Assembly: GCF_028368975.1 (NCBI RefSeq)
Contig: NZ_JAQNDM010000002.1
Location: forward strand, 4,520,425-4,584,424
Direction of reading: 5' to 3'
Source of the DNA: Stigmatella ashevillena
GTDB lineage: Bacteria > Myxococcota > Myxococcia > Myxococcales > Myxococcaceae
Length of the DNA: 64,000 nt
Numbering within the stretch: position 1 is the first letter of the stretch; the number at the start of each line of letters is the position of its first letter. Below, piece after piece: positions 54,273-56,839 of the stretch. The position numbers and the translations under genes were made by a program. The notes under the pieces were generated by a model. That model did no database searches. It worked only from the letters and a program-made list of their open reading frames with translations, and was not told the origin of the DNA.

Positions 54273-55799
54273 TCAACCACCGACCACCCGGAAGACTTCA
54301 CGCAGGGTGGTGGCCCCCGCCCGGGCCCGCTCCACCCCTGCCGCCAGCAGTGGCACCATGCCTTCGCTCGTGGCGATGTCTTGGAGCCGGGGAGAGGGAA
54401 GCTTCTCATTGATGCCATCCCGGAGGGCCGGGCTGACGGTCAGCATTTCATAGATGGCGGTGCGGCCCAGGTACCCGCTGCCGCCACAGCGCTCGCAGCC
54501 CACGGGGCCGTAGAACGTGCCACTGGCGATGCCCGCCGCGTCCAACCGGGCCACCTCCTCGGGACTGATGGGCGAGGGGGTGCGGCAGTGCGGGCACAGC
54601 GCGCGCACCAGCCGCTGGGAGAGGGTGGCCACCGTGGCGGAGGCCAGCAGGAAGGGCTCGACCCCCATCTCGATGAGCCGGTTGAAGACACCCGCCGCCG
54701 AGTTGGCGTGAATGGTGGTGAGGATGAGGTGGCCGCTCAAGCCTGCCTGAATAGCGGTGCGCGCCGTCTCCGGGTCTCGAATCTCTCCCACCATGATGAC
54801 GTTCGGGTCCTGGCGCAGCACCGAGCGCAGCCCCTGAGCGAAGGTGAAGCCCTGCTCGGAGTTCACCTGCGTCTGGGCGAACAGGGGCACGTCGAACTCG
54901 ACGGGATCCTCGATGGAGGCGATGCGGGTGAGCGCACCCCGAGACTCCTTGATGTAGCCGAGCGAGGCATACAGCGACGTCGTCTTACCGCTGCCGGTGG
55001 CGCCCGCCACGAAGATGACGCCCTGGGGCAGCCCCAGGAGTTCCCGGTACTTCTCGTGCAGGGCGGTGGGGAAGCCCAGCGCGGTGAGCTGGGGCAGCCG
55101 CACCCCGCTGCGGGCGATGCGCAGAGCCACCGCCTCGCCGTGGTTGGTGGGCAGGATGGAGATGCGGATGTCCGCGGGCCCCTCCTGGGTGGAGAACGGA
55201 AAGTGGCCGTCCTGGGGCTTGTCGAGCTTGTACAGGGTGAGCTTGCCCAGGACCTTGATGCGATTGATGAGGCGCGGGTGCACCTCGCGGGGAATGGTCA
55301 GCACCTCCTCCAACACCCCGTGGACACGAAAGGCAATGCGGGTGCCCGCCTCCAGGGGATGGATGTGGACGTCACTGGCGCCCAGGCGGATGGCCCCATC
55401 CATCAGCGTGTCCATGAAGAGGATGATGTCCGGCTCGGGCCGCGAGGCCACGCCCCGCAGGTACTGCCCCAACTCCACGAGCATCTCGCGCACGGCGATG
55501 GCCACGTCCTCGTTGACCACCTCCAACGGAGACAAGGAGGGGCGCTTGGCCAGGGGGGGCGGCGCGCGGGAGCTCAGCTTCGAAGCGGCGGAAGCGCCCA
55601 GTCCCAGCACCACCGCCAGCCCTGCGCTCATGAAAAACAAGGGGGTGGCGGCGGCACTCAGGTAGAGCCGCCCCAGCTGTACCGCGGCCTCTAGGTTCGG
55701 CGGCAGGTGCTGGGAGAGCCCCCAGGCCCCACCGGCCACCAGGACCAATCCCGCCAAAGTCCACAGGATGCGGGCCGCCTTGCTCATCAACGCAGTCAT
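54273..55799 (-). CDS. Membrane-anchored GspE/PilB-type ATPase
   Basis: Start ATG 55799 (MTALMSK), 508 aa. Two membrane helices near the N-terminus (ILWTLAGLVLVAGGAW and LYLSAAATPLFFMSAGLAVVLG) replace the usual N-terminal domain of secretion ATPases. The ATPase core has Walker A GATGSGKTTS, Walker B VIMVGEIRD, Asp and His boxes, and the four-Cys zinc motif CPHC...CERCGG of GspE/PilB. It should drive a type II secretion or type IV pilus-like machine, but no pseudopilin, GspF or secretin gene is present here. The anchors are unusual for this family. Confidence 0.9.
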   Translation of the reverse strand: MTALMSKAARILWTLAGLVLVAGGAWGLSQHLPPNLEAAVQLGRLYLSAAATPLFFMSAGLAVVLGLGASAASKLSSRAPPPLAKRPSLSPLEVVNEDVAIAVREMLVELGQYLRGVASRPEPDIILFMDTLMDGAIRLGASDVHIHPLEAGTRIAFRVHGVLEEVLTIPREVHPRLINRIKVLGKLTLYKLDKPQDGHFPFSTQEGPADIRISILPTNHGEAVALRIARSGVRLPQLTALGFPTALHEKYRELLGLPQGVIFVAGATGSGKTTSLYASLGYIKESRGALTRIASIEDPVEFDVPLFAQTQVNSEQGFTFAQGLRSVLRQDPNVIMVGEIRDPETARTAIQAGLSGHLILTTIHANSAAGVFNRLIEMGVEPFLLASATVATLSQRLVRALCPHCRTPSPISPEEVARLDAAGIASGTFYGPVGCERCGGSGYLGRTAIYEMLTVSPALRDGINEKLPSPRLQDIATSEGMVPLLAAGVERARAGATTLREVFRVVGG

Positions 55800-55964
55800 G
55801 GATGGGTCAAACCCTACCACACCGCCCTCTTCGCGGGAGGTTCCCGCAAGGTCCGGGTGTCCACGAAGACGCCAAAGGAGGAAGCGGGGCATCGCTCCCC
55901 AGGGAAATCGCCATCGGATGCGCGGTTTGGGACTACGGTGCTGGGTGCAGCGAGTCCAGGTACG

Positions 55965-56086
55965 CTAGTGGACTGTCCGCGAAGTTTTTCGACATAGTCG
56001 CTGAGGACCGATGCCCGGAGATCGCTCGATGGACAGTATCGAGTAGCCCACGACTATGTCGAAGAACTTGTAAGACACTCCACTAG
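55965..56086. mobile_element. 122-bp MITE-like element with 36-bp imperfect terminal inverted repeats
   Basis: The left arm (55965-56000) and the right arm (56051-56086, read as complement) share CTAGTGGA-TGTC, AAGTT-TTCGACATAGTCG with seven or so mismatches. Both ends are CTAG, consistent with insertion at a CTAG site and a TA duplication, as for IS630/Tc1-mariner elements and their non-autonomous derivatives. The 50-bp centre has no ORF, so it is not a full IS. The right arm contains the stop codon and the last codons of the DUSAM gene. Transposition would need an enzyme in trans. Confidence 0.75.
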
Positions 56087-56839
56087 GTTCTCCTCGGCGG
56101 CGCGGCGGTATCTCGGGACGACCTCCACGGCCAGCCAGTCGCGGAGCTGCTGGCGAGCCCCTTCGAAATCCCCAGCATCCCGGAGTTCCGTCATCCGGTA
56201 CATGGCGCTCTTGAGCCGGTCTGAGGCCTCACGGAGGCGCCCCATGATCTGTCCGAGAAGCGCCCCGGCACTCTCAGGACTGGCGAGCGCCGGTTCCGTC
56301 TCGTCCTCGCTCATGCCCACGTCAGCGGCGGACCGTCGAAGGAAGGCGCGCATCCCCTCGTTGAGTTCCAGTGGGTGCCCTTGCCAGACGCGGTGCAGAA
56401 GGATCGGAAGCTGCGACCGATCACGTAGCGTTGGGTCAATCTGCCCGCTGGCCTCAATCGACTTGAGCCGCATCAGCGCGTGAAGAGAGTCTGCCGCACG
56501 TTGGCGGTAAAGCGGTACGACCTCAACTGAGAGCACACCCTCCATTTCCCTGCACGCGCCATCCACGTCCCCAGCATCCCGGAGGTCTGAGGCTTTGACT
56601 TGAGCCTCAAAGAGCCGCTTGGAGCCCTCCTTGAAGCGCCTGCTGATCTCTTGAAGCAGAGTCGTGGCGGTGGGAACGCTCCGAAGGGCTTCGTCTGCGT
56701 CACCGGGAGAGAGCGCTACCTGCTCAGCGGAACGTCGCAAGAGTGCACGTACCTCGTCCGACAGTACGAGCGGTTCCCCATCCTCTAAAACACGGGCCTC
56801 CAGCTCGTCGATCAGCTCTGAATCGAACTTGTCCGTCAT
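56054..56839 (-). CDS. Tandem DUSAM-domain protein with an element-derived C-terminus
   Basis: Start ATG 56839 with AGGAGG upstream, 261 aa. Two DUSAM domains lie in tandem, each with the family pattern of an acidic start (LEDGEPLVLSDEVRALLRRSA and GHPLELNEGMRAFLRRSA), a helix ending in LRDAGD-DGA/EGA, and EVVPLYRQ/EVVPRYRR. DUSAM proteins are known almost only from Stigmatella and Myxococcus relatives; the function is unknown. The final residues LVECLTSSST and the stop fall inside the right arm of the MITE-like element, so the C-terminus is probably changed from the ancestral one. Confidence 0.85.
   Translation of the reverse strand: MTDKFDSELIDELEARVLEDGEPLVLSDEVRALLRRSAEQVALSPGDADEALRSVPTATTLLQEISRRFKEGSKRLFEAQVKASDLRDAGDVDGACREMEGVLSVEVVPLYRQRAADSLHALMRLKSIEASGQIDPTLRDRSQLPILLHRVWQGHPLELNEGMRAFLRRSAADVGMSEDETEPALASPESAGALLGQIMGRLREASDRLKSAMYRMTELRDAGDFEGARQQLRDWLAVEVVPRYRRAAEENLVECLTSSST

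Follow-up and report, generated by a model that had tools for sequence, protein, structure and literature searches.

Insertion of IS630-type elements takes place at TA, which is duplicated in the process, as described for ISY100 (PMC2170065). According to the citation given there, IS630 of Shigella sonnei preferentially targets the TA in 5'-CTAG-3' (Tenzen and Ohtsubo 1991, cited in PMC2170065), and on that account the CTAG preference is old knowledge. MITE sequences that are translated as part of host proteins have already been reviewed (PMC2229807), and the kind of event considered here is already described. The bacterial fusions in that review involve RPE of Rickettsia, ERIC, RU-2 of Yersinia and Correia. 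In Neisseria, MITE hairpins affect adjacent mRNAs (review PMC2229807). The present locus is a 122-bp element at the 3' end of a DUSAM gene of Stigmatella ashevillena, in a 64-kb window (the whole stretch of DNA analysed, 64,000 nucleotides). As in the RPE, ERIC, RU-2 and Correia fusions, the repeat is translated in frame; unlike them, it gives merely about ten residues and a stop codon. No publication on this particular element was found in the literature searched.

The inverted repeat and its presumed parent

The element consists of two 36-nt arms, 83% complementary, around a 50-nt centre, with CTAG on both ends (Table 1). It is short and contains no transposase gene. Within the window, matches to the 17-mer GTTTTTCGACATAGTCG with three or fewer mismatches are confined to the two arms (0.01 expected by shuffling), and the folded strand reaches -61.8 kcal/mol (z = -7.3). 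The ends also recur at many places in the organism's own genome (10.95 Mb, two contigs searched). On these three counts the inverted repeat is not a product of chance. An Rfam search of the region returned no match. The CTAG ends are best interpreted as the target site, whose TA was duplicated: their outermost C and G belong to that target CTAG, and the transposable part runs GTGG...CCAC between the two TA copies.

Table 1. Features of the locus and of a 278-bp family with the same ends (dot, no strand assigned).
Feature	Position	Strand	Basis or content
MITE insertion, IS630-type miniature element, 122 bp including CTAG ends	55965..56086	.	inverted repeat; full-length relatives
Left terminal inverted repeat, CTAGTGGACTGTCCGCGAAGTTTTTCGACATAGTCG	55965..56000	.	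variant also in other MITEs of the family
Right terminal inverted repeat	56051..56086	.	outer 22 nt identical to 13/14 IS ends
TA target-site duplication, left copy, inside CTAG	55966..55967	.	empty-site join; CTAG in seven IS copies
TA target-site duplication, right copy, inside CTAG	56084..56085	.	empty-site join; CTAG in seven IS copies
DUSAM domain protein gene, two DUSAM domains, present end	56054..56839	-	TIGR02267 E 3.7e-64; PF09543 E 1.3e-58
Donated C-terminal codons and stop, LVECLTSSST-stop	56054..56086	-	CTA GTG GAG TGT CTT ACA AGT TCT TCG ACA TAG
Displaced original DUSAM gene end (codons AYLDSLHPAP, stop TAG)	55933..55964	-	empty-site join; alignment with uninterrupted genes
Downstream codirectional type II/IV secretion ATPase gene, context	54273..55892	-	PF00437 E 1.2e-103
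278-bp MITE copies L131-L134	G013:C1 3072047-3072324, 6512087-6512364, 11596410-11596687, 12310823-12311100		

The same genome contains seven complete insertion sequences of 1212 bp, all seven with CTAG at both ends. This target is shared with the Shigella sonnei IS630, a different element, as cited above. Over its outer 22 nt, the MITE right end shows no difference from 13 of the 14 ends of these copies. The left arm matches the IS ends at 77-83% rather than 93-94%, and the direct parent may therefore be a sister IS. ORF A of the 1212-bp IS carries a helix-turn-helix (HTH_29), and ORF B carries a DDE_3 domain and exceeds the NCBIfam IS630 transposase cut-off; the presumed parent thus has the helix-turn-helix plus DDE_3 transposase of the IS630 family. 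In a transposase scan of named genomes, matches are found in Hyalangium versicolor, Archangium violaceum and a Myxococcaceae MAG. Derivation of the 50-nt centre from the IS interior was considered and rejected, as the matches are short and at chance level.

The transposase of the 1212-bp copies is split. For example, at L032:1320-1468 the ORF A and ORF B frames need a +1 (or -2) shift to be joined. In the four IS copies that the scan matched, the overlap of the two ORFs contains seven consecutive C, which suggests programmed slippage.

Two relatives of the MITE are full-length and include the centre. One is in the same genome (G000, C2:3924620-3924742; 123 bp, 80%) and the other is in the congener Hyalangium versicolor H56D21 (G006:C16:114669-114790; 122 bp, 84%). 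Weaker relatives of similar length (72-73%) occur in three further genomes (G020, G033 and G034). Family lengths fall at 119-123, 143-147, 174-192 and 272-279 bp and longer. In one region of the same genome, a 147-bp and a 123-bp MITE, distinct from each other but sharing these ends, are separated by about 1 kb (L031:1460-2743; G000:C2:3923459-3924742). A separate 278-bp family with the same ends is represented four times in a single genome from another genus (Table 1); one of these copies shortens an ORF by more than 260 codons.

The element shares with IS630-family MITEs, which are non-autonomous IS630/Tc1-mariner derivatives, the ends of a resident IS, a TA duplication in CTAG with a restorable empty site, the lack of a transposase and the presence of multiple copies that include the centre. 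Nothing essential differs; here the left arm is a divergent variant and the family lengths vary. The initial annotation had described imperfect 36-bp repeats with CTAG ends and a 50-bp centre, which agrees base for base with the arms given above. It had also proposed a MITE of IS630 parentage and named the absence of other copies as evidence against one. The proposal is borne out by the IS-matching ends, the empty-site join, the transposase domains and the seven 1212-bp IS copies, and the objection fails on the two full-length relatives.

The exchanged end of the DUSAM gene

The DUSAM gene presumably starts at the ATG of MTDKFDSELIDELEARV. Its ORF ends inside the right arm with LVECLTSSST and a stop codon, and the first of these donated codons, CTA, is shared with the target site. 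When the element and one TA are removed, the flanks read GAG AAC CTA GCG TAC CTG GAC TCG CTG CAC CCA GCA CCG TAG, that is, ENLAYLDSLHPAP followed by a stop. The rejoined 3' end is in frame and gives AAEENL-AYLDSLHPAP-stop, against AAEENL-VECLTSSST-stop at present. The ORF end and the empty-site join agree with the earlier statement that the last ten residues and the stop codon come from one arm. The original tail now lies downstream of the element and is untranslated.

The joined flanks end in AAEENLAYLDSLHPAP, the counterparts in G004 and G001 in AAEENLAYLDSLSPAP, and those elsewhere in ENLAGLDEPPPAP, each before a stop codon. Uninterrupted DUSAM genes end in AAEENLAYLDSLSPAP (L068 and L055) or AAEENLAGLDEPPPAP (L066 and L054), with the tails AYLDSLSPAP or AGLDEPPPAP, again before a stop. 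The empty-site DNA aligns with these genes without a break (L055, 93% over 100 nt; L068, 89% over 111 nt; L066, 86% over 116 nt); with the element in place, the alignment falls into two pieces that are split at it. Because the rejoined site aligns unbroken, the insertion is read as the exchange of one tail for another.

Across the gene, the closest relatives are in G005 (92% nucleotide identity, ending AGLDEPPPAP-stop) and G004 (90%, ending ASLDELPPAP-stop), and both are without the element. These relatives stand in other surroundings, and no syntenic, element-free copy of the DUSAM gene was found among the genomes compared. No relatives were confirmed when named genomes were scanned with the DUSAM protein. 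DUSAM genes are multicopy, and the comparison is therefore with paralogues or shuffled orthologues. Homologues without the insertion lack the inverted repeat and differ at the C-terminus. The initial annotation had named orthologues with the same C-terminus but no repeat as a refutation, and the homologues do not fit that description.

In the preferred reading, a non-autonomous IS630-type MITE, presumably moved in trans by the transposase of the 1212-bp IS or of a close sister, entered the TA of a CTAG that lay eleven codons upstream of the original DUSAM stop. The TA was duplicated on insertion. In the phase CTA G.., the terminal repeat reads LVECLTSSST-stop, with LAYLDSLHPAP (11 residues) lost and LVECLTSSST (10 residues) gained. 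Judged from sequence comparison, it is almost certain that the DUSAM tail was exchanged in this way. What can be read directly from the DNA is the inverted repeat, the agreement of its ends with those of the IS, the clean join at the empty site, the uninterrupted homologues and the other MITE copies; mobilisation in trans is what we infer from them.

The hairpin and the state of the gene

The hairpin had been suggested as a possible terminator. The fold is strong, but no T-run follows the hairpin on the gene's strand. On that minus strand the scan for terminators detected no candidate site, and on the plus strand one weak site; the suggestion is not supported. The MITE may instead have acquired a function in which its hairpin stabilises or attenuates a putative DUSAM-ATPase read-through transcript. 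A strong hairpin does lie within this possible co-transcript, and such functions are reported for some other bacterial MITEs, including those of Neisseria (PMC2229807). The relatives examined are without the insertion, however, and an acquired function is unlikely, with a role in the stability of the putative transcript a possible form of it.

The insertion might also have inactivated the DUSAM gene, which would now be a decaying pseudogene. The changed tail is compatible with this, and single copies of a multicopy gene may be dispensable. Against it, the gene keeps an intact reading frame with both domains matched, and the 90-92% nucleotide identity to the relatives across the gene shows no decay; inactivation is accordingly rather improbable. 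The profile match of the second DUSAM domain extends to position 114 of 116 and finishes eight residues short of the new stop codon. The earlier claim of a reshaped coding end is right in that 11 residues were replaced by 10, but the change is small and falls at the very edge of, or beyond, this domain. Since both domains are essentially whole, the effect on the protein is probably near neutral.

That the repeat is native to the interval between the DUSAM gene and its neighbour, as an immobile terminator or a hairpin for RNA processing, can practically be dismissed: its very stable fold and its place between two codirectional genes would suit such a role, but its ends are common to the IS and other MITEs at unrelated places, the gene's strand has no terminator-like site and the plus-strand site is weak, and uninterrupted homologues without the hairpin align across the join, which refutes this origin.

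Sibling copies at gene ends

Ends were paired in 54 loci of the organism's own and related genomes, and one copy with an arm indel was added by hand. About 39 paired copies result, of which about 27 have CTAG at both ends. Among those entered by a coding frame, seven coincide with the stop codon (NNC TAG); as their ends regenerate CTAG, the protein is unaltered. Two copies (L036 and L134) are in the same phase as the DUSAM case and truncate ORFs by some 265-300 codons, and three candidate frames are entered in the third phase. The coding frame was judged solely by open length and G+C at codon positions, so these stop-codon, truncation and phase counts are approximate.

In the window, base composition predicts about 192 CTAG sites and 13 are present, a strong depletion of roughly fifteen-fold. 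Three of ten CTAG sites scored there are at stop codons in coding phase. With this background, the stop-codon copies need no special explanation. Enrichment at stop codons was considered as a selected property and rejected, as there is no excess over the CTAG background, itself a small sample of 10 sites in the window.

The terminal repeat could in principle have been selected to be harmless, so that copies survive at gene 3' ends. CTAG targeting and an end that begins with G would regenerate TAG in one phase, and the conserved ACATAG would halt translation after ten residues in another. The availability of targets, together with purging, can account for the seven stop-codon copies among about 39, and such selection is highly improbable.

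No new class of system is opened by this 122-bp element. With the MITE insertion as the preferred reading, the locus is a clean, reconstructable case in which a mobile element alters the end of a protein without destroying it. The insertion explains a non-homologous C-terminus that would otherwise puzzle annotators. The sibling copies on TAG stops show why CTAG-targeting elements are tolerable beside genes in high-GC genomes.
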